The notes below the pieces were generated by a model. The model was not told the DNA's origin. It did no database searches and was given only the letters and a program-made list of their open reading frames with translations. A stretch of DNA of 64,000 nucleotides. It comes from Cordylochernes scorpioides. Lineage: Eukaryota; Arthropoda; Arachnida; Pseudoscorpiones; Chernetidae. Shown piece by piece: positions 5,191 through 64,000 of the stretch. The DNA lies in contig CP092877.1 in the NCBI GenBank assembly GCA_030710605.1, forward strand, positions 71,895,085 through 71,959,084, written 5' to 3'. The position numbers and the translations under genes were made by a program. The number at the start of each line of letters is the position of its first letter. The first letter of the stretch is position 1.

Positions 5191-5394
5191 CATTCTACTT
5201 CAGAGATAAGAAATAAGAAGTCATACCCCATAGTTACCTAAGTGGAGGGGCCATATGTAAATTAGAGGGTCACTAAATGAAGATGGAGTATAGCTGCCTG
5301 AAGTACAGTTTCCAATCCTTGCTTCGCTTCTAAAAATGGCTTCACTTTCTTTTACATCCCATCATGTAATGTCTTTATAGGTCACTAGCTGAAT

Positions 5395-5510: not shown

Positions 5511-5833
5511 TTCACCCAGGATCTTTTCAAGTGAATGTTTGCCCTATGAATGAAAGAAAGAAGAAGATTTTTCCCCTTATCTTCTCTCTTGAAGAGAGGT
5601 GATAATGTTTTATTTGATTTTGTGGCCTTTTTAAAGCTTATACTAATGACAATCTAATGTAAAATGGAATAATACAAGATATTAATAATAGGAACCTGAA
5701 ATATATCCTATTTATATACCCAATCAAGTGTGTACAACTGTGTATTGTAAGCAAAATGTGTTTGCTATACTATACAAATATATTGTGTCTTATCAAATAC
5801 CTGATTATATTAACTAGCTAGATGGATAATACG

Positions 5834-6000
5834 ATAAAGCACAATTTGGATTATAGTAATATATATAATAATATAAAAAATAAAAATATAAATTAAATAT
5901 AAAAATTATTATTTTTTCTGATGATGGTGACAATGCTGTTGCTGAAATGTCACACACTAATAAATTATTTGGATTAGGTCTTATTTTCTTTTATATTAGA
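5834..6000. mobile_element. Hammerhead-like fold-back element, subfamily with GATAAAGCAC end
   Basis: The extended end begins GATAAAGCACAATTTGG. The core reads CTGATGA, a hairpin stem GGTGAC/GTTGCT, then GAAATGTC. The outer arm ends in GGTCTTATTTTC. The loop region is filled with AT repeats. It is shared with the right arm at 63265-63430. Confidence 0.62.
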
Positions 6001-8473: not shown

Positions 8474-8970
8474 TAAATCAGTGAAAAGGTATTATGAGGC
8501 TGTAACCTGGATGATATATCCTGTGACAACATTGATGGAAGAATGCCATCTCTCTATATGTAATTCTACTGTCCTAAAAGCTTATGTCCATAGTTTGCTT
8601 AAATATGAAATTCCACCCTTCAATGTAGCATATATAAGCAGTATGATCCAATACAGATGTTAGAGCTCTAAAGAAGCGGTCTGGTAGATTAAATTGGCGA
8701 AACTGCTGGGAGGGTTCACCACTGATGATAAGCTAAGCTCTCCCAATATTTTTTCATCACAGTAAGGACAGTAGAAGTTTGATTGATGTGTTGAATAAAC
8801 ATTTGCGTCTTAATGTTTTCATTTGCTCTATATAGATGGTGCGTTATAGCTTTATAAAAAAACATCAATGGGTCAGTTTTATTCCAGAATAGTAGCAGAA
8901 CTAGAGGTGTCCAGATGGAAGAAATTTTGGGTTTGTTTTAACACAGTGCCTATTGACTAAAAAATATGAC

Positions 8971-9197
8971 GATAAGGCACAATTTGGATTATAGATTATA
9001 AACACAAGGTAATAAGACCAAATACAAATAAATAAATAGTGTGTGACGTTTCGGTAACAGCGTTGTTACCATCTTCAGACAAAAGTACTGAATGATAAGA
9101 CCAAATAAATAAATAGTGTGACGTTTCAGTAACAACGCTGTTACCGAAACGTCACACACTATTTATTTATTTGGATTTGGTCTTATTACCTTGTGTT
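8971..9197 (-). mobile_element. Hammerhead-like fold-back element with 13-bp TSD
   Basis: One end is extended (GATAAGGCACAATTTGG...) and the other short (...ACCTTGTGTTT). The 13-base duplication TAAAAAATATGAC flanks it at 8958-8970 and 9198-9210. Inside are inverted copies of the CTGAAGA-hairpin-GAAACGTC core. A DNA MITE of the Tc1/mariner type would give TA, so this duplication points to retrotransposition. Right-arm partner at about 59880-60098. Confidence 0.75.
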
Positions 9198-9369
9198 TAA
9201 AAAATATGACATTATCATTAGCAATATTAAAATAAATTTGATGTCAAATTCTTACAACCACTAAATGAAAAAAAAAAAATCAGAATTATTGGGATTGGGG
9301 GGAAGAACAATAGATGCTAATTTCACATTTTGTTAAATTTTGATTTCTAAAAGACTCTCCCAGAGTGCT

Positions 9370-17131: not shown

Positions 17132-17572
17132 AAAATTTCCTACACAAAAAATAAGTATTATATAGGACTCCTTGGTTTATCATTAACTTATAACCTGTAC
17201 CAAGACCATTAGTATGAAAACGAGTTTGTGGTTGACACTTATTGTTAATTATAAAGCTTTCTTTACGAAATTCTATTAAAATGATCAAATTTCTTATTTT
17301 ATAATCAAAAGATATTAAAACCATAAAATTACTTGAAAACTTTCTCCATAGATTGTATAAACGATAAGGAAGAGTAAGGAGAAAATATTTTTATTCAATT
17401 AAACTTGTGACAAGCTTTCGGGCAGTCACGCCCTTCAACAGGTAATAAAAAGAACAATTGACTATTAAAATAGGAAACAAACTGAGCTTTAAACAAAAAT
17501 GATACAACTGCAGCCTGGCCGCGAGAAAACGTGAATTCAGGAAAGTAATGTGAGGTGGGGGGAGAGGGGGGT

Positions 17573-17873
17573 CTATCCGGTTTTTAAGTTAATACATATA
17601 TCATGATATTGTTTAGGTAAATCTATATGTCGATTAATACTGTCATTAGAAATGGATAAAATGGCCTCTATGATTAATCTCTGGTGTTTACTGGGAATGT
17701 TATTGTACAAGGTGGTGGGAGAATCTAAATTGAAAGAATGGCCAGTATTATGGGTGTGGTTGTATATGAAGGATCTGCCGTCTTTATTATTGATGCATCT
17801 ACCATGTTCGATCATCCTGATGGCCACGGACCTACCTGTCTCACCTATGTAGGTTGCACTACAATCGTTACAT
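17573..17873 (-). pseudogene. GIY-YIG endonuclease domain of the Penelope-like element, copy 1
   Basis: The reading frame starts upstream of the listed methionine. It includes SVYSVSCNDCSATYIGETG, which holds the GIY-like V-Y-S and Y-I-G motifs with a C-X2-C pair between them, as in the Penelope clade. The R-X3-R...EHGR helix and an H-X3-H region follow. In working elements this nuclease nicks target DNA for priming. It ends at KTG and TAA. It is separated from the reverse-transcriptase frame by a shift near 17970, so the fused protein is not made. Confidence 0.78.
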
Positions 17874-18558
17874 GAGACTGAATAGACCGAGCCACCAGAA
17901 GATCGAACAGTGGTAGGTCTCTGTATGCGGGTAATGGGATGTCTAAGAATGGTGGCCAGACTTCTATTATTTTTAAAATAAGTATTGATACCGTGGGATT
18001 TAAAAGCATGCGGGATATGGTAGCGGATTGTGATGAAAAAGGCAAAATACAGGTATTTCTATGGGCTGTAAGGGGTTTCAACTTAGCAGAGTTGTATTGG
18101 TATTTGTGTATGAAATGGAGAGGGTATTGTGAGAGGGCAAGCTGTTTTTTGATGTTGGAGAATTCTATTGACCTAAATATGGGCAGGGAGCAATGTGTGA
18201 CCAATCTTTTGGTAAGTGTTCTGACTGTATTAATTTTATGGGATAAGGGACAGGAAGAATTGAAATTGGTATAGAAAGTTGGGTTATTTATTTTATGATA
18301 TACTGTTGTGTGGTAGTGTGATGGGGTACAAATAATGAGTATGTCGAGAAAAGGTATAACACCATTAACTTCTGATTCATAACTGAAAGAAATGTCAGGG
18401 TGAAAGGAGTTAAGAACAGATAAAATGCCAACCTCACTATCAGAATCACATATACAAAGGATATCATCAATATACCTCCTCCACATGTGAATGCCCAGTG
18501 TGTATTGGCGTTGGATTCAGTCGTCAAGGGTAGACATAACTATTTCAGCTAAGGGTGA
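17874..18558 (-). pseudogene. Penelope-like reverse transcriptase, C-terminal part, broken
   Basis: Reading on the minus strand from 18558, the frame gives SPLAEIVMSTLDD, an in-frame TGA, then GIHMWRRYIDDILCI with the catalytic Y-I-D-D motif. After it come VIPFLDI and a thumb-like region. Near 17972 the frame shifts by one; the new frame continues NNRSLATILRHPITRIQRP into the GIY-YIG domain. The fingers and first palm motifs are missing because the copy ends at the inverted junction. Family assignment is firm (RT plus GIY-YIG), activity is lost. Confidence 0.75.
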
Positions 18559-18905
18559 TGATAACCACTGTTCGTTCTTCTGGTGGCTCGGTCTATTCAG
18601 TCTCATGTAACGATTGTAGTGCAACCTACATAGGTGAGACAGGTAGGTCCGTGGCCATCAGGATGATCGAACATGGTAGATGCATCAATAATAAAGACGG
18701 CAGATCCTTCATATACAACCACACCCATAATACTGGCCATTCTTTCAATTTAGATTCTCCCACCACCTTGTACAATAACATTCCCAGTAAACACCAGAGA
18801 TTAATCATAAAGGCCATTTTATCCATTTCTAATGACAGTATTAATCGACATATAGATTTACCTAAACAATATCATGATATATGTATTAACTTAAAAACCG
18901 GATAA
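18555..18905 (+). pseudogene. GIY-YIG endonuclease domain, copy 2 (inverted partner)
   Basis: This 116-codon open frame starts MITTVRSSGGSVYSVSC and runs to the same KTG end as copy 1, with one or two substitutions (K for E in the LIIKAIL region). It lacks the reverse transcriptase and starts at the head-to-head junction at about 18535-18570, so the leading ATG is fortuitous. It carries the same YIGETG and HNTGH signatures as copy 1 on the opposite strand. Confidence 0.75.
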
Positions 18906-19139
18906 ACCCCCTCCCCCCCCCCCACCTCACATTACTTTCCTGAATTCACGTTTTCTCGCGGCCAGGCTGCAGTTGTATCATTTTTGTTTGAAGCTCAGTT
19001 TGTTTCCTATTTTAATAGTCAATTGTTCTTTTTATTACCTGTTGAAGGGCGTGACTGCCCGAAAGCTTGTCACAAGTTTAATTGAATAAAAATCTTTTCT
19101 CCTTACTCTTCCTTATCGTTTATATTAAAACCATCTAAA

Positions 19140-21665: not shown

Positions 21666-21984
21666 TTCTTAGTATTAAATTTACTAAATGATATTTTGTG
21701 GATAAGATAATAATAAATATTCTCTGTTATAAATACATATTTACTTCCCTTTGCGAGCTGTGATCCACAGCTTACAAATTTTGTTGCTACAAACATTGGG
21801 GTTTGAGTATTTCAATCAGGTTTCCCTCAGCATTTTGAAAATGGTCCTTAGTTGTTTTACACCCTTTTTCTTATCAGGCTTTATTGTCATAATATCTATA
21901 GGGACATTGTCTTTTTAAGTGTAAAATCTTTGCTATAATACTGCGGTGGATTCCTAGAATCAGTGATCTTCTTTCTTATCTCCA

Positions 21985-22143
21985 CAAGGTAATGAGACCA
22001 AATCCAAATAAATAAATTCATTTAGTACTTTTGTCTGAAGATGTTAACAATGCTGTTACCGAAACGTCATACACAATTTATTTATTTGGATTTGTTCTTG
22101 TTACCTTGTGTTTATAATCTATAATCCAAATTGTGCCTTATCT
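21985..22143 (+). mobile_element. Hammerhead-like fold-back element
   Basis: Short arm AGGTAATGAGACC, core CTGAAGA with a TTAACAATGCTGTTA hairpin then CCGAAACGTC, and extended arm ending AATTGTGCCTTATC. Direct CTTTCTTATCTCC strings flank it on both sides (21971-21983 and 22142-22154), a 13-base duplication. Right-arm copy at about 48133-48293. Confidence 0.68.
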
Positions 22144-23136: not shown

Positions 23137-23528
23137 AACACAAGGTAATAAGACCAAATCCAAATAAATAGTGTGTGATGTTTCAGTAACACCGTTGTTA
23201 CCATTTTCAGACAAAAGTACTGAATGATAAGACCAAATCCAAATAAATAAATAGTGTGTGACGTTTCGGTAACATCGTTGTTAGCATCTTCAGACAAAAG
23301 TATTGAATGATAAGACCAAATCCAAATAAATAGTGTGTGACGTTTTGGTAACAACGTTGTTACCATCTTCAGACAAAGTACTGAATGATAAGACCAAATC
23401 CAAATAAATAAATAGTGTGTCACGTTTCGGTAACAGCGTTGTTACCGAAATGTCACACACTATTTATTTTTTTGGATTTGGTCTTATTACCTTGTGTTTA
23501 TAATCTATAATCCAAATTGTGCCTTATC
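23137..23528 (+). mobile_element. Hammerhead-like fold-back element with internal tandem array
   Basis: The 13-base duplication AGTAAGGACAGTA lies at 23124-23136 and 23529-23541. Between the short arm (AACACAAGGTAATAAGACC) and the extended arm (ATTGTGCCTTATC) there are four tandem repeats of about 75-95 bases, each with GTAACA-GTTGTTACC and ATCTTCAGACAAA. The other allele (45654-45853, same duplication) has fewer units. Open frames across it are repeat artefacts. Confidence 0.8.
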
Positions 23529-27588: not shown

Positions 27589-28913
27589 CCCTTAATTACT
27601 CGCGCCTATATTTGTTACGTAAGTACTCGCGTTGAGATCCAGGTCTCACTTTTAAAAAACCAAAATATATGTTAAATTTTAATATTTGGATTGAAAAATA
27701 GTCTGCATTATATTCGTAATTGTGTGTAGTTTATGACACATGTGAATTAAGGCAAAAAATATTTTATATTTATTTATTTTTATTGAAACAATGACTATAG
27801 TAAAAACAATGAATGTTTGACATAGTTTTACAAATAGGCTACTATTAAAAGTTGCAGACGGATATTATTCGCAATCTTCGCAAATATTCGAAGAATGACG
27901 TTGACAGATGTGTCTCCTGCAACGTTCTTGTGACATAATTGCTCTCACAATTTCTACACCTGAGCCATCCACCGCCCATAGCTCTTTATAAGTTAAATGA
28001 GCAGCTCTTTTGACACCTGACATTATCAAAAGTCCAAATAAAGCTAGGATTTCTGTTACAGTAGTTAATTTGGCATCTCTTTCTCTAGAGAAATGTTCTT
28101 TGATATTGCTTATATAAGCATTCGTACAATCTACAATTTTTTGTATCATATCATTATCAATTATTTTTGTAAATGCATCCGATTCAGATTCTATCGATTT
28201 TGCTTCAGATTTAGGCCCTGGCAATTGAGAAATTATATTTACACTTCTTGTACGAATCTGGGTTTTCTGCCACATTGTCTTTTTCCATTTTGTGACACCA
28301 TCCTTTCCAAAATAAAATTCAGAATCATCATTTGGTAATTCTTCATCCGCCTCTGAATTCTGTTCAGAGTCTGTGTCATGATAACTATAAATTTCGGTAT
28401 CAGAAGTATCGGATAAATCACAAATTATTTCATCGCAATCCATGTCGGATTCACTCTGATTCCTCTCAGAAGTACTAGCCATTTTTTATAATATATATTT
28501 TAGGAAATATTTAGTATTAAAATATTGAATAAAAATAAATAAATTCTAAATACCTAAGAGAGACAGAGAGAGAGAATTTAGGATATTTAGGAACAAAAAT
28601 TATACTTAGAAGAAGAACAATAACTTACTGTTTTACGAAGATAGAGCCAGCCGGAAAATGAAACCTAAACCAAAATTATTACGCAAGTACTCGCGTTGAG
28701 ACGTTTGTCTCGGCGGTGGCTTTTTTGTTTTATTTTTCTTCCTTCTAGGGGCCAAGCGATATAACAAATGGTCTAAAATATTTATTTCGATGCTATCTTA
28801 AGCTACAAAAACTTACAAATTATTTGGACTCGAAAATCGTATTTATTTTTTTCGATTAAAATTTTAGGTGAGACCGTGTCCGAGACCTGTGTCTCGACGC
28901 GAGTAATTAAGGG
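27589..28913 (-). mobile_element. piggyBac element, internally deleted, left arm only
   Basis: The 16-bp perfect TIR CCCTTAATTACTCGCG is at both ends, with TTAA on each side (27585-27588 and 28914-28917). The right arm has the single intact TTAA (in TTTTTTAAATTACCGTC, reversed, near 41108-41116). Subterminal TACTCGCGTTGAGA motifs at about 27620 and 28687 repeat in direct orientation. The transposase frame is shortened (separate entry). The clean empty site makes it a recent insertion. Confidence 0.93.
27865..28482 (-). CDS. piggyBac transposase, internal deletion (205 aa)
   Basis: A full piggyBac transposase is roughly 550-600 residues and excises and inserts DNA at TTAA with a three-aspartate catalytic core. 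Here the first 185 or so residues are present: an acidic N-terminus with repeated D/E/S, then DGVTKWKK, a TSLIYISNIKEHFS-type segment with LALFGLLIMSGV (the domain start), and a TYKELWAVDG motif. The frame then jumps to a short end, CRRHICQRHSSNICEDCE, resembling the C-terminal cysteine-rich zinc-binding tail. The catalytic aspartates are therefore deleted although the frame is intact. The start ATG at 28482 is the first in frame. A DNA-binding or dominant-negative product is possible but speculative. Confidence 0.8.
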   Translation of the reverse strand: MASTSERNQSESDMDCDEIICDLSDTSDTEIYSYHDTDSEQNSEADEELPNDDSEFYFGKDGVTKWKKTMWQKTQIRTRSVNIISQLPGPKSEAKSIESESDAFTKIIDNDMIQKIVDCTNAYISNIKEHFSRERDAKLTTVTEILALFGLLIMSGVKRAAHLTYKELWAVDGSGVEIVRAIMSQERCRRHICQRHSSNICEDCE

Positions 28914-31312: not shown

Positions 31313-31543
31313 GATAAGGCACAATTTGGATTATAGATTATAAACACAAGGTAATAAGACCAAATTCCAAATAAATAAAATAGTGTGTGACATTTCGGTA
31401 GCAGCGTTGTTACCATCTTCAGACAAAAGTACTGAATGTACTTCTTGCTGAAAAGCTTCAGTACTTTTGTTTGAAGATGGTAACAACGCTGTTACCGAAA
31501 CATCACACACTATTTATTTATTTGGTCTTATTACCTTGTGTTT
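31313..31543 (-). mobile_element. Hammerhead-like fold-back element at the inner edge of the left arm
   Basis: Starts GATAAGGCACAATTTGG and ends CCTTGTGTTT. Its outer flank AACCCTATAAAAT (31300-31312) equals the 13-base duplication that brackets the allelic copy at 34878-35587. On the inner side the expected duplicate is missing and AGACTGTATATG follows. The element is thus the exact point at which the two arms stop matching. Confidence 0.8.
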
Positions 31544-31974: not shown

Positions 31975-32222
31975 GAGACAAGGGTCGCCTCTCCCGTCAA
32001 AACCAGACACCATCTATTGACTGTTGCCGCAAACTAGCGACCTCGGGTCGGTGACAAAGCCACAACAGCAGCTTTGGCAAACTGCGTCCACCTAGAGACC
32101 ATGGTTTCGGGCTAATGGCCCTCGTCAGCCTAGGAGATCTAATGGAATCTTGACAATCTGCCAAAGAGGTATTTAGCATGATGGCATCTGGTTTTGACGT
32201 CTCTTTGACTTGTCTCTTTAGC
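31975..32222 (-). mobile_element. Small element with hammerhead motif and inverted ends
   Basis: AAGAGACAAG and CGTCAAAACCAGACACCATC on the left match, inverted, GATGGCATCTGGTTTTGACG and CTTGTCTCTTT on the right. About 250 bp long, with the hammerhead on the minus strand in the middle. It is not found elsewhere in the window. A 60-codon open frame overlaps it but shows no domain. Confidence 0.5.
32091..32134 (-). ncRNA. Complete minimal type I hammerhead ribozyme motif, minus strand
   Basis: Reading the minus strand: stem I 5' strand CCTAGG, core CTGACGA (32128-32122), stem II GGGC/GCCC closing CATTA, GAA (32108-32106), stem III ACC-AT-GGT, C17 at 32097, stem I 3' strand TCTAGG (32096-32091). 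Stem I forms six pairs including one U-G, and every conserved core base is present. Cleavage would fall between 32097 and 32096. The very short stem III is typical of Penelope-like/retrozyme hammerheads that act as dimers. Confidence 0.75.
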
Positions 32223-34496: not shown

Positions 34497-34596
34497 NNNN
34501 NNNNNNNNNNNNNNNNNNNNNNNNNNNNNNNNNNNNNNNNNNNNNNNNNNNNNNNNNNNNNNNNNNNNNNNNNNNNNNNNNNNNNNNNNNNNNNNN
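34497..34596. other. Assembly gap of exactly 100 N
   Basis: A round 100-base N run is the usual placeholder for a scaffold join of unknown length. It is bordered by a LINE fragment on the left and a SINE fragment on the right, the kind of places where contigs end. Confidence 0.97.
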
Positions 34597-34628: not shown

Positions 34629-34877
34629 ATATATTTTTAATTAATATTATGAATTGGGCCTCATTTTTTTATTTAATTAACTTAGAAATTTTCATGACTT
34701 TTAGAGAGGATCACAAAATTGCTTTAATACATATTTTTATACATGAAAAAAAATTGCAAATACTTTTTATTATAAGTGAATAGTTGCAGTGAGAAGAGAA
34801 AGTGAATAAATTAGGAAAATAAAGCTAAAATTGTATTTACAGAAGTATGATGTTTTAAATAAATATTTTATAGGGTT

Positions 34878-35587
34878 ATAAACACAAGGTAATAAGACCA
34901 AATCCAAATAAATAAATAGTGTGTGACGTTTCGGTAACAGCGTTGTTACCATCTTCAGACAAAAGTACTAAAGCTTTTCAGTAGTAGTAGCTTTTCATCA
35001 AGAAGTACATTCAGTACTTTTGTCTGAAGATGGTAACAACGCTGCTACCGAAACGTCACACACTATTTTATTTATTTGGAATTTGGTCTTATTACCTTGT
35101 GTTTATAATCTACTAGCTGAATGACCCGGGCAACGCCCGTGTTTTAATTTAGACACGTGGACCTGTTGGATCATTAACGCCCGTGTTTTACCCAATTGAA
35201 TGTTTTTATTCAAATACTATTTGTTACAATTATAAATTTGAGCCTTAAATAAATGCATATATAGTTAATAACTGTAGCCTATGTGCTTTATCTGTCTATG
35301 TACTGTTGGCTTCCGTAGGCGTCTCTTACTGGGAAAAAGAAAGGGAGGATTCCATTTAGTTATTAACTAATATATGCATTTATTTAAGGAGCGACCTGCT
35401 CCAACACAATAGTTACAAAAAGCGAGTGGGGGGGCAAAGTCAAAAACAAAGTGTCTCGCGCATTGGCGGCGCAATCGTAGCGAACCAATAGGAGAGCGCC
35501 ATTCCAAAAAAAAAGCAAACGGTGACAGAGATGAAGAACGCATGACGCTCGTAACTGTATATAGAATAATCCAAATTGTGCCTTATC
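34878..35587 (+). mobile_element. Hammerhead-like fold-back element with 13-bp TSD, right-arm inner edge
   Basis: Short arm ATAAACACAAGG, two GTAACA hairpin cores, extended arm ending TGTGCCTTATC. The 13-base duplication ATTTTATAGGGTT is at 34865-34877 and 35588-35600. It is interrupted by the Helitron at 35113-35566. The allele at 31313-31543 has the duplication on one side only. Confidence 0.82.
35113..35566 (-). mobile_element. Non-autonomous Helitron inside a fold-back element, right arm only
   Basis: The 3' end (minus strand) is CGGGTCATTCAGCTAG with a GGGC-GTT-GCCC hairpin. The 5' end is TCTATATACAG at 35565-35555. It splits the host string AATCTATAATCC between A and T; the intact string is seen in other fold-back copies and in the left allele near 31330. 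Contains a CpG-rich core (35400-35550). The body matches 51130-51190. Confidence 0.85.
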
Positions 35588-37191: not shown

Positions 37192-37337
37192 TGATAAGGC
37201 ACAATTTGGATTATAGATTATAAACACAAGGTAATAAGACCAAATCCAAATAAATAGTGTGTGACATTTCGGTAACAGCGTTGTTACCGAAACGTCACAC
37301 ACTATTTATTTATTTGGATTTGATCTTATTACCGTGT
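37192..37337 (-). mobile_element. Hammerhead-like fold-back element with 13-bp TSD, right arm only
   Basis: The duplication GTATTTACAGGAA lies at 37179-37191 and 37338-37350. Extended arm TGATAAGGCACAATTTGG, arms meeting at CGGTAACAGCGTTGTTACCG, short arm TCTTATTACCGTGT. The left arm lacks it (near 29490, AATGTAAATACATTTT). A recent insertion that fixes the ends of the family. Confidence 0.87.
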
Positions 37338-37724
37338 GTATTTACAGGAAGTTATTGAATTGTCTCAATGCTCTGTAAAAATGCACACCAATACATACAA
37401 AATTGTTAATAAATTATAATTTAACTTCTTCGGTCAACTAAGGGATCAGAATTTTTGGTTTAAAATCAAGTCAGTGTTGAATTATAGTCAACAACAACAA
37501 CAAAAAAGCCTTTATTTAGGGTCACTGACCCTATACAGGATTCACCAGAGGTATGCATAAGAACAAAGCAGTGAGACAAAGGAAATAACGATATATACAG
37601 AGTAGAAAGAGAAAAAGAAAAAAAAACAAGAAAAGGAAAAAAAAATAATAATAATAATAAGAAAGAGGGAAGCAAGAAATCAACACAAAAAGAGTAGCAG
37701 TAAGAAAGTGAGGAGTGAGTATCA

Positions 37725-42195: not shown

Positions 42196-43363
42196 TCTAC
42201 TTATATAATTGCCTTATTCTGAAGCTCACGGATAGAATGCGCGCCCATTGGCTGCCGGCGAACACGTGTCCTCCCTGCCCCCCTCTAGACAACCCTGTTA
42301 TCAGCTGTGTGATACATACACCTGTCTAAAGCGGCCATTCCAGACAACCCTGTTATCAGCAGTGTGATACATCCACCTGTCTATACAGACCACCCTGTCT
42401 ATAGCGACCACTGACCACCCTGCCTATAGCGACCACTCTAGACAACCCTGTTATCAGCTGTGTGATACATCCACCTGTCTATACAGACCACCCTGTATAT
42501 AGCGGCCATTCCAGATAACCCTGTTATCAGCTGTGTGATACATATACCTGTCTATAGCGGCCACTCTAGACAACCCTGTTATCAGCTGTGTGATACATCC
42601 ACCTGTCTATACAGACCACCCTGTCTATAGCGGTCACCTCAGGCAACCCTGTTATCAGCAGTGTGTTACATTCACCTGTCTATAGCGGCCACTCTAGACA
42701 ACCCTGTTATCAGCTGTGTGATACATCCACCTGTCTATACAGACCACCCTGTCTATAGCGGTCACCTCAGGCAACCCTGTTATCAGCTGTGTGTTACATT
42801 CACCTGTCTATAGCGGCCACTCTAGACAACCCTGTTATCAGCTGTGTGATACATCCACCTGTCTATACAGACCACCCTGTATATAGCGGCCATTCCAGAT
42901 AACCCTGTTATCAGCTGTGTGATACATATACCTGTCTATAGCGGCCATTCTAGACAACCCTGTTATCAGCTGTGTGATACATCCACCTGTCTATACAGAC
43001 CACCCTGTCTATAGCGGTCACCTCAGGCAACCCTGTTATCAGCTGTGTGTTACATTCACCTGTCTATAGCGGCCACTCTAGACAACCCTGTTATCAGCTG
43101 TGTGATACATCCACCTGTCTATACAGACCAACCTGTCTATAGCGGCCACTCTAGACAACCCTGTTATCAGCTGTGTGATACATCCACCTGTCTATACAGA
43201 CCACCCTGACTATAGCGGCCACTAGACAACCCTGTTATCAGCTGTGTGTTACATTCACCTGTCTATACAGACCACCCTGTCTATAGCGACCACCCAAGAC
43301 AACGTTTTAAAAACATATCCGCACTCGGGTAAAACTCGGGCGTTGCCCGGGCCATTCGTCTAG
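42196..43363 (+). mobile_element. Non-autonomous Helitron carrying a minisatellite, right arm only
   Basis: Begins TCTACTTATATAATTGCC, ends GGGCGTTGCCCGGGCCATTC then GTCTAG, between host A (42195) and T (43364). The left arm has the intact TATA^TGAATA site (reversed, near 25998-26004). The 5' part shares GCGCCCATTGGCTGCCGGCG with 26733-27237. A 1 kb tandem array fills the middle. No Rep/helicase. Confidence 0.88.
42287..43306 (+). repeat. Minisatellite, 15 copies of a CCCTGTTATCAGC unit
   Basis: Each unit contains AACCCTGTTATCAGC[T/A]GTGTG, then ATACATCCACCTGTCTAT. An optional ACAGACCACCCTGTCTATAG block makes long (about 70-83 bp) and short (about 55 bp) units, which tend to alternate. I count 15 occurrences of CCCTGTTATCAGC. 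CTGTCTATAGCG also resembles the CAGTTAAACCTGTCTATAGC end of the Tigger MITEs. Internal minisatellites are common in non-autonomous Helitrons. Confidence 0.9.
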
Positions 43364-56843: not shown

Positions 56844-57120
56844 TGATAAAGCACAATTTGTATAATAGATTATAATAAAAGAAAATAAGACCTAATCCAA
56901 ATAATTTATTAGTGTGTGACGTTTCGGCAACAACATTGTCACCATCATCAGACAAAAGAATAAAAATGGTTAGTGTGTGACGTTTCGGCAACAACATTGT
57001 CACCATCATCAGACAAAAGAATAAAATTTTATTCTTTTGTCTGATGATGGTGACAATGTTGTTGCCGAAACGTCACACACTAATAAATTATTTGGATTAG
57101 GTCTTATTTTCTTTTATTAT
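56844..57120 (-). mobile_element. Hammerhead-like fold-back element with 13-bp TSD, right arm only
   Basis: The duplication AATCTTCAAATTA is at 56831-56843 and 57121-57133. The left arm has one copy (TAATTTGAAGATT, 11717-11729). It is of the GATAAAGCAC subfamily. One internal segment (TTAGTGTGTGACGTTTCGG to AGACAAAAGAATAAAA) is tandemly doubled. Confidence 0.88.
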
Positions 57121-62973: not shown

Positions 62974-63181
62974 TAAGTAGGTTGAAATCCTCTGAAGAAT
63001 ATAAATAATAGAATCAAAGCATGTGAGGATGCGTATCTTATGAGTTTTAATAAAGGCGAGCTTTCGGGTCAATAACCCTTCTTCATGTACATGATGTCCT
63101 GAAGAAGGGTTATTGACCCGAAAGCTCGCCTTTATTAAAACTCATAAGATACGCATCCTCACATGCTTTGATTCTATTATT
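62974..63181. mobile_element. Palindrome of Penelope-type terminal repeats, right arm only
   Basis: The 14-base duplication TACACAGATAATAT is at 62960-62973 and 63182-63195. Two arms of about 80 bases (AATAATAGAATCAAAGCATG through GGGTCAATAACCCTTCTTCA) are inverted around CATGTACATGATGTC. Each arm carries CTGAAGAAGGGTTATTGACC then CGAAAGCTCGCC, like the TGCCCGAAAGCTTG hairpin of the Penelope-like element at 17325-19121. The left arm has one TACACAGATAT (reversed, about 6065-6075). It has no coding capacity. Confidence 0.8.
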
Positions 63182-64000
63182 TACACAGATAATATATTTG
63201 GGAAACTATAATGAAACGATTTTCCTTACAAAAAATCTAAATGTCGATAAAATGTATTATCCATCTAATATAAAAGAAAATAAGACCTAATCCAAATAAT
63301 TTATTAGTGTGTGACGTTTCAGCAACAGCATTGTCACCATCATCAGAAAAAAGAATAATTTTTATATTTAATTTATATTTTTATTTTTTATATTATTATA
63401 TATTACTATAATCCAAATTGTGCTTTATCGTATTATCCATCTAGTTAGTTAATATAATCAGGTATTTGATAAGGCACAATATATTTGTATAGTATAGCAA
63501 ACACATTTTGCTTACAATACACTCGTTGTACACACTTGATTGGGTATATAAATAGGATATATTTCAGGTTCCAATTATTAATATCTTATATTATTCCATT
63601 TTACATTCGATTGCCATTAGTATAAGCTTTAAAATTAAAAAGACCACAAAATCAAATAAAACATTATCACCTCTCTTCAAGAGCGAAGATAAGGGGTAAA
63701 AAATGTTCTTCCTTCTTTCATTCATAGAGCAAACATTCACTTGAAAAGATCCTGGGTGAAACAGGATTACAATTTATAATTGTAACGAATAGTATTTGAA
63801 TAAAAATAACTTTTTTAATACATACACACTCAGCGTGAAATCACTCTCGGGTAAAACCCGGGCATTGCCCAGGTCATTCAGCTAGTGACCTATAAAGACA
63901 TTACATGATGGGATGTAAAAGAAAGTGAAGCCATTTTTAGAAGCGAAGCAAGGATTGGAAACTGTACTTCAGGCAGCTATACTCCATCTTCATTTAGTGA

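Follow-up and report, generated by a model that had tools for sequence, protein, structure and literature searches.

The window, a stretch of 64,000 nucleotides from the 2.62 Gb genome (24 contigs) of the pseudoscorpion Cordylochernes scorpioides, contains many copies of a fold-back repeat: blastn with the five copies named in the initial annotation yielded 38 merged stretches, 28 of them longer than 100 bases. As the initial annotation had reported, these five copies (Table 1) are flanked by target-site duplications (TSDs) of five different sequences, which we read as 12–13 bases long, the shortest extending to 14 bases if two more bases, which also fit the end of the element, are included. 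An imperfect inverted duplication occupies positions 5270–64000, centred on a 100-N gap at 34497–34596, and in a self-alignment of the window its pieces of at least 300 bases, 76–97% identical, account for about 39 of the 64 kb. Either the assembly has joined two haplotypes head to head, or the palindrome is real. Because of this duplication many fold-back copies come in pairs, although the five named copies still represent five different sites, and empty sites become available for comparison. The opposite duplication arm lacks the 56844 copy and has a single AATCTTCAAATTA, and it likewise lacks the Penelope-like element (PLE) at 17325 and has a single ATATTAAAACCAT. The fold-backs at 37192 and 62974 are also absent from the opposite arm, where the sites without insertion differ by a few bases, those at the 37192 site being missing. 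The tail of the 34878 copy is interrupted by another repeat, which its counterpart at ~31313–31543 does not have; a repeat (CTAG..GAATGACCCGGG...) lies at the same tail position in several fold-backs (~35113–35560, L012/L013 and L032).

Table 1. Fold-back copies, a Penelope-like element and their target duplications in the window
Feature	Position	Strand	Target duplication (length)	Remarks
Fold-back	5833..5996		TAGATGGATAATAC (14)	further copy
TSD, left	8958..8970		TAAAAAATATGAC (13)	of copy 8971..9197
Fold-back	8971..9197			named copy; tail arm left, short arm right; extra tandem ribozyme unit of the rare 80-nt type
29-nt tail	8971..8999	minus		on one arm of copy 8971..9197 only; between two putative RT start sites
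Hammerhead-like block	9045..9078	minus		in copy 8971..9197; CTGAAGA-T-stem II-GAAACGTC
TSD, right	9198..9210		TAAAAAATATGAC (13)	of copy 8971..9197
PLE, second family	17325..19121	minus (RT and GIY-YIG frames)	ATATTAAAACCAT	
Fold-back	21983..22140		TCTTTCTTATCTC (13)	further copy
Fold-back	23137..23528		AGTAAGGACAGTA, 23124-23136/23529-23541	named copy; tandem ribozyme units
Fold-back	34878..35587		ATTTTATAGGGTT, 34865-34877/35588-35600	named copy
Fold-back	37192..37338		TATTTACAGGAA, 37180-37191/37339-37350	shortest named copy
Fold-back	56844..57120		AATCTTCAAATTA, 56831-56843/57121-57133	named copy; second subfamily (CTGATGA...)
Fold-back	62974..63182		ACACAGATAATAT	belongs to a different hammerhead-like family (CTGAAGAAGGG...CCCGAAA)

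On the ribozyme strand, the repeat unit consists of CTGAAGA, a single T, stem II and GAAACGTC, followed after ~45–50 nt by the end of the short arm (..CCTTGTGTTT) and then by the 29-nt tail (..GCCTTATC). The motif GAAACGTC occurs 19 times in the window against 0.50 expected and the pattern CTGANGA...CGAAA 14 times against 0.36, with none of 100 shuffles reaching either count. The block corresponds to a hammerhead core with stem II and one extra nucleotide ahead of it; a viroid hammerhead also carries an extra nucleotide at this place. By eye, a putative stem I comprises about 3 pairs and a putative stem III could form only if two units pair (ACGU), while cleavage of the block at 9045 is predicted after its last C. 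No hammerhead was matched by Rfam at the gathering cut-off over the whole window, nor by a permissive search of 34860–35120, which covers one copy. This permissive search returned mir-2513 first, on both strands (E 8e-16 and 3e-15) and under its cut-off; since mir-2513 and the fold-back share GUCUGAAGAUGGU, a PLE fold-back may underlie this miRNA family, too. Similar cores with other complementary stems, belonging to other families of the window, lie at 32105–32128 (GGGCCATTAGCCC) and 63099–63123 (GGGTTATTGACCC), and the PLE of the window has the stem GGGCGTGACTGCCC next to the core CTGTTGA, one letter off. The initial annotation had placed such a block in every arm, which holds as far as the presence of hammerhead-like blocks is concerned but not for the copy at 37192, whose arms meet within stem II.

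For the characterization of ends, clusters were read in 78 loci as well as the window, 118 in all, and 68 fold-backs passed the duplicate filter. Both ends could be read in 50 of them, and 43 were mixed, with one short and one tailed end, while four were short/short and three tail/tail; after two second readings were dropped (L098, which lies within the L019 stretch, and L004, the counterpart of L001), mixed ends were found in 41 of 48 distinct fold-backs, in agreement with the one short and one extended arm described initially. All seven non-mixed calls were kept in these denominators, although inspection by eye leaves at most three exceptions. Among the automatic short/short calls the tail is repeat-interrupted in L012 and L032 and diverged in L007, L100 being ambiguous; among the tail/tail calls L028 represents two merged copies and L031 is doubtful, while L023 stands with two tails. 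Loci L001–L008 were chosen by similarity to the copy at 8971 and L009–L058 for matching the tail exactly, a choice that under-represents short/short copies. The 20 ribozyme-anchored loci L089–L108 (22 clusters, some overlapping earlier loci) gave 9 distinct mixed fold-backs, one short/short and no tail/tail; everything else there was incomplete, a duplicate or no fold-back at all. The two borders of an insertion usually differ in position, one lying at each of two points ~29 nt apart.

TSDs of at least 11 bases, with one mismatch allowed from 13 bases up, were found in 27 of the 68 fold-backs compared with 1 of 243 mismatched-flank controls, and 21 of them are 13 or 14 bases long (11 bases, 1; 12, 2; 13, 11; 14, 10; 15, 2; 16, 1), as the initial annotation had anticipated; the other 41 fold-backs showed no TSD under these settings. 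Tabulating the longest exact border repeat without any floor gave 13 or 14 bases in 17 of 68 fold-backs and 9–14 bases in 27. Repeats of at least 9 bases occurred in 27 of 68 fold-backs versus 3 of 672 mismatched-flank controls, the excess extending over 9–14 bases with peaks at 13 and 14, whereas repeats of 3–8 bases showed no excess over controls in these 68 fold-backs. Where readable, the duplication is ~13–14 bases long. The 27 target sites appear AT-rich, with a weak, roughly symmetric tendency towards AAA(C/T)-[13]-GTT in the flanks.

The unit, comprising the hammerhead-like hairpin, the short-arm end and the 29-nt tail, is the pseudo-LTR (pLTR) of an autonomous-type PLE, as follows from its fixed distance after the PLE frame and from the layout of the two loci L114 and L116. 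At L014 and L048, a frame for part of the reverse transcriptase (RT) and a GIY-YIG endonuclease (EN) ends ~150 nt upstream of the unit. Searching the genome with their EN region gave 34,750 loose candidates, the best 150 of which, when scored, were all at least 96% identical and included open frames of up to 897 amino acids. In five of five loci (L109–L113) the unit lies at an equal distance from the partner PLE frame, with L109 being the place of L014 and L110 and L112 looking like one insertion seen twice. Both L114 and L116 have the order short arm plus tail, ORF, ribozyme, short arm. In L114 the sequence of short arm and tail overlaps the start of the frame, which has 897 codons from stop to stop and 883 from the first ATG and reads past the stop of other copies; L116, with an 860-codon frame, repeats directly in tandem at a period of 2,824 bp. 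By eye, 5 nt separate the 5' end of the right arm of L114 (C9:58465600-58469400; CTATTTATTTATT) from the predicted ribozyme cut, as though trimming of the template had occurred at that point.

An RT in this ORF is supported at the level of the predicted protein: it shares 28% protein identity with a second PLE family, with alignment of YVDD/YIDD and DKG, which we take to be the RT motifs of these names, and its best PDB match is a group II intron RT (E 0.00095), while a Pfam search of the ORF returned no RT match and nothing useful. The GIY-YIG endonuclease lies C-terminal to the RT, with IYEVKC..CYVGQT in the ORF aligned to the second family, where alone the PF01541 profile matched, weakly and under its cut-off (E 0.018–0.024). 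An autonomous-type element with the same ends, which would have counted against the initial annotation if it were a DNA transposon, thus exists, and it is a PLE; the Penelope-type insertion proposed initially is supported.

Direct or inverted pLTRs are present in L114, L116 and the PLE pairs. Among the 150 scored places, 22 of 23 neighbouring PLEs within 6 kb face outwards and one is direct, and in the second family all 11 close pairs are outward, two of which on C9 (spacings 823 and 822) are perhaps one duplicated insertion. Insertions of inverted PLE twins carry 13–16-base duplications, such as AACAACAAATGTA (13 bases, by eye) for the twin L109+L115 and a 16-base border repeat, AATTTTAAATTAAATT, for L113. 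Thirteen of the 30 second-family loci showed matching ends left and right, two of them reaching the edge of the locus, and 8 of these 13 have TSDs of 13–15 bases. Nine of 11 testable twins were mixed, with the right end of one (L082) resting on its overlapping neighbour L083, and the short/short exceptions are L084, with a 14-base TSD, and L065, with none. The second-family element in the window has an inverted GIY-YIG copy on its right, an extended left end and a short right end. Taken together, the insertions are bordered on either side by the PLE 3' end, the two ends being inverted relative to each other.

Genome-wide counts were obtained with patterns on both strands, each with a reversed-pattern control of 0; diverged copies are missed, and as pattern lengths and mismatch limits differ, ratios between counts are approximate. 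The short-arm 23-mer was found 136,303 times and the 22-mer of the tail end 111,201 times (both ≤2 mismatches), in line with the very high copy number predicted initially. With ≤3 mismatches, the 34-mer of short arm plus tail gave 64,942 matches (48% of the short-arm count), the ribozyme block 80,252, the 41-mer from the ribozyme 3' half to the short arm 59,797 and the passage from PLE 3' UTR into the ribozyme 18,168, while the stem II fold-back junction, a pattern that is its own reverse complement, was counted as 9,636 places. At the same limit, the tail-to-ribozyme junction of 125-nt tandem units occurred 546 times and the 80-nt tandem junction 63 times. About half of the listed places with the 125-nt junction lie on contig C8; these arrays of ~125-bp units (ribozyme, short arm, tail) and that of L006, where tails are arrayed in tandem within an insertion bearing a 15-base TSD, have the classical retrozyme-like arrangement. 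Six of the 63 matches of the 80-nt junction fall within the window (8971–9197, 23137–23528 and their counterparts), the copies at 8971 and 23137 being of this rarest tandem type. Viral contigs contained no exact match to a 30-mer.

Comparison of 86 inverted-to-direct transitions, overlapping loci included, revealed junctions that vary from copy to copy and are concentrated at self-complementary positions, above all in ribozyme stem II. When overlapping or duplicated loci are set aside, junctions resemble each other at stem II and at one CTGAA spot (L029/L031/L035), and weakly in L024/L040 and between L038 and both L031 and L099. Copying of the fold-back as a unit was rejected, since junctions reappear nowhere but at stem II, at the CTGAA spot, in overlapping or duplicated loci and in two weak pairs (L024/L040 and L038/L099). 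Of 338 aligned stretches, 221 end 20–59 nt upstream of the predicted cleavage site, the full range extending from ~1,070 nt upstream to ~60 nt downstream of it, positions that are blurred by partial alignments. The arms extend into the PLE 3' UTR and some into the EN and RT coding region.

We therefore propose, with a probability of roughly 0.8, that the fold-backs are mainly short 5'-truncated products of one abundant PLE, formed by two-sided target-primed reverse transcription. The PLE enzyme would cut both target strands ~13 bases apart, and each cut end would prime reverse transcription of PLE RNA from one of two internal start sites, leaving a tailed arm at one border and a short arm at the other. 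The two minus-strand cDNAs would then be joined where they are able to pair; since they are identical strands, such pairing is expected at self-complementary sequence, e.g. stem II. For Anolis, the accessible part of a biochemical study (PMC11167929) describes a PLE protein which cuts and extends both strands, with RT starting at two internal sites, one on each side of the tail, and the genomic record fits a two-sided version of this reaction. The Anolis element PAc, a Penelope/Poseidon-type PLE, also resembles the one described here in having RT and GIY-YIG, a pLTR, an optional tail (30–40 nt between the RT start sites there, 29 nt on one end here) and, read from the RNA printed in the methods of that study, a hammerhead of the form CUGANGA-U-stem II-GAAACGUC with the extra nucleotide ahead of stem II. 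Unlike for PAc, as far as that part of the study covers it, the record here is dominated by very short inverted twins with 13–14-base duplications, and across the genome the two borders tend to use one start site each, while start sites did not differ between strands in vitro (PMC11167929). Counterexamples are L023, with L100 and L031 as doubtful cases, and, in the second family, L084 and L065 for the use of one start site per border, and the direct tandem L116 for the inverted-twin rule. Also weighing against the proposal are the 41 of 68 fold-backs in which no TSD was seen and the searches that matched no hammerhead in Rfam and no RT in Pfam.

Anolis PLE ribozyme mutants still inserted in vitro according to the same source (PMC11167929). 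The hammerhead would trim tandem PLE transcripts, with cutting probably not needed for insertion. Only tentatively, we extend two-sided insertion to a general scheme in which PLE integration would normally involve a dimeric enzyme that primes both strands and uses each RNA start site once per event, the ribozyme hairpin serving, in a second role, as the place where the cDNAs anneal. If this were true, the ribozyme would be retained for joining, either in addition to cutting or in place of it.

An alternative origin of both arms from a single cDNA, by snap-back self-priming and perhaps on an antisense template, was proposed for inverted pLTRs in the rotifer Adineta vaga, where, in the part of the report available, it is argued from palindromic inverted junctions (PMC3846280). 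The Penelope families of this rotifer resemble the present element in these junctions, in inverted pLTRs of which one carries a 31-bp tail, in solo pLTRs and in an empty allelic site, but differ in their low copy number and 8–10-base duplications as well as in the explanation given (PMC3846280). Palindromic junctions are common here as well, and no clear mixing of two subfamilies between arms was found among 63 fold-backs, the two flagged by the test lying at its error limit and appearing unmixed by eye. However, self-priming does not account for borders that fall at the two RT start sites, one at each, a tendency that is better explained by two primed strands, and many junctions lie away from the stem II hairpin. 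In addition, minor variants are not shared between the arms of one fold-back beyond chance (9 versus 10.4 expected for random pairs), in a weak test on 35 fold-backs that include two or more second readings. As to whether one RNA or two serve an insertion, these two comparisons point in different directions or lack power. We regard self-priming as an unlikely source of these copies.

The initial annotation had favoured a tiny non-autonomous, ribozyme-bearing Penelope satellite. In this rival reading, a separate, retrozyme-like satellite would be transcribed independently, cleave itself by its hammerhead and be inserted in trans by PLE enzymes. Tandem forms with 125-nt (546 junctions) and 80-nt units (63) do exist, one of them within the insertion with the 15-base TSD at L006, and metazoan retrozymes are thought to depend on PLEs, as stated in the portion of PMC7229834 available. 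With these the present repeats share a Type I hammerhead-like motif, low GC and some tandem arrays, whereas metazoan retrozymes are tandem repeats of ~170–400 nt without coding capacity (PMC7229834), while the unit described here is a PLE pLTR with rare tandem junctions, whose monomers would be 80 or 125 nt long. Arms that extend past the ribozyme on its upstream side run into the PLE 3' UTR much more frequently (18,168), some reaching EN or RT, and the unit belongs to an autonomous-type PLE. An independent satellite as the main source was rejected on this genome-wide comparison of junctions, as was assignment of the main population to the metazoan retrozymes, and this part of the initial proposal appears improbable. 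The reading as a MITE, a fold-back DNA transposon ending in terminal inverted repeats, is suggested by short, inverted ends and very many copies but can practically be dismissed, as the initial annotation had considered probable: the ends are unequal, duplications are mostly 13–14 bases instead of fixed and short, internal junctions are variable in place of a conserved interior, and the same ends occur on an RT-encoding element.

The mechanism of PLE insertion is still debated between the self-priming view of 2013 (PMC3846280) and the 2024 biochemistry with both strands and two start sites (PMC11167929), as presented in the accessible parts of both papers. PLEs are a poorly understood class of jumping gene, and this genome preserves an extensive natural archive of their insertion, with tens of thousands of matches to the products of one PLE, some of them polymorphic between the duplication arms. 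Since duplications, tails, junctions and empty sites are readable, competing insertion models become directly testable. Our search of the open PMC library found no description of a PLE fold-back population of this size or of the one-border-per-start-site tendency. It should be noted that hairpins in animal genomes which resemble MITEs, miRNA precursors or retrozymes can be truncated PLE insertions.

Two further features of the window lie outside the fold-backs. A tandem array at 42282–43303 is composed of 128-, 73- and 55-bp units based on CCTGTCTATAGCGGCCAC, and a minus-strand frame at 27865–28485 matches DDE_Tnp_1_7 (E 5.9e-13) and is presumably a fragment of a piggyBac-type transposase.
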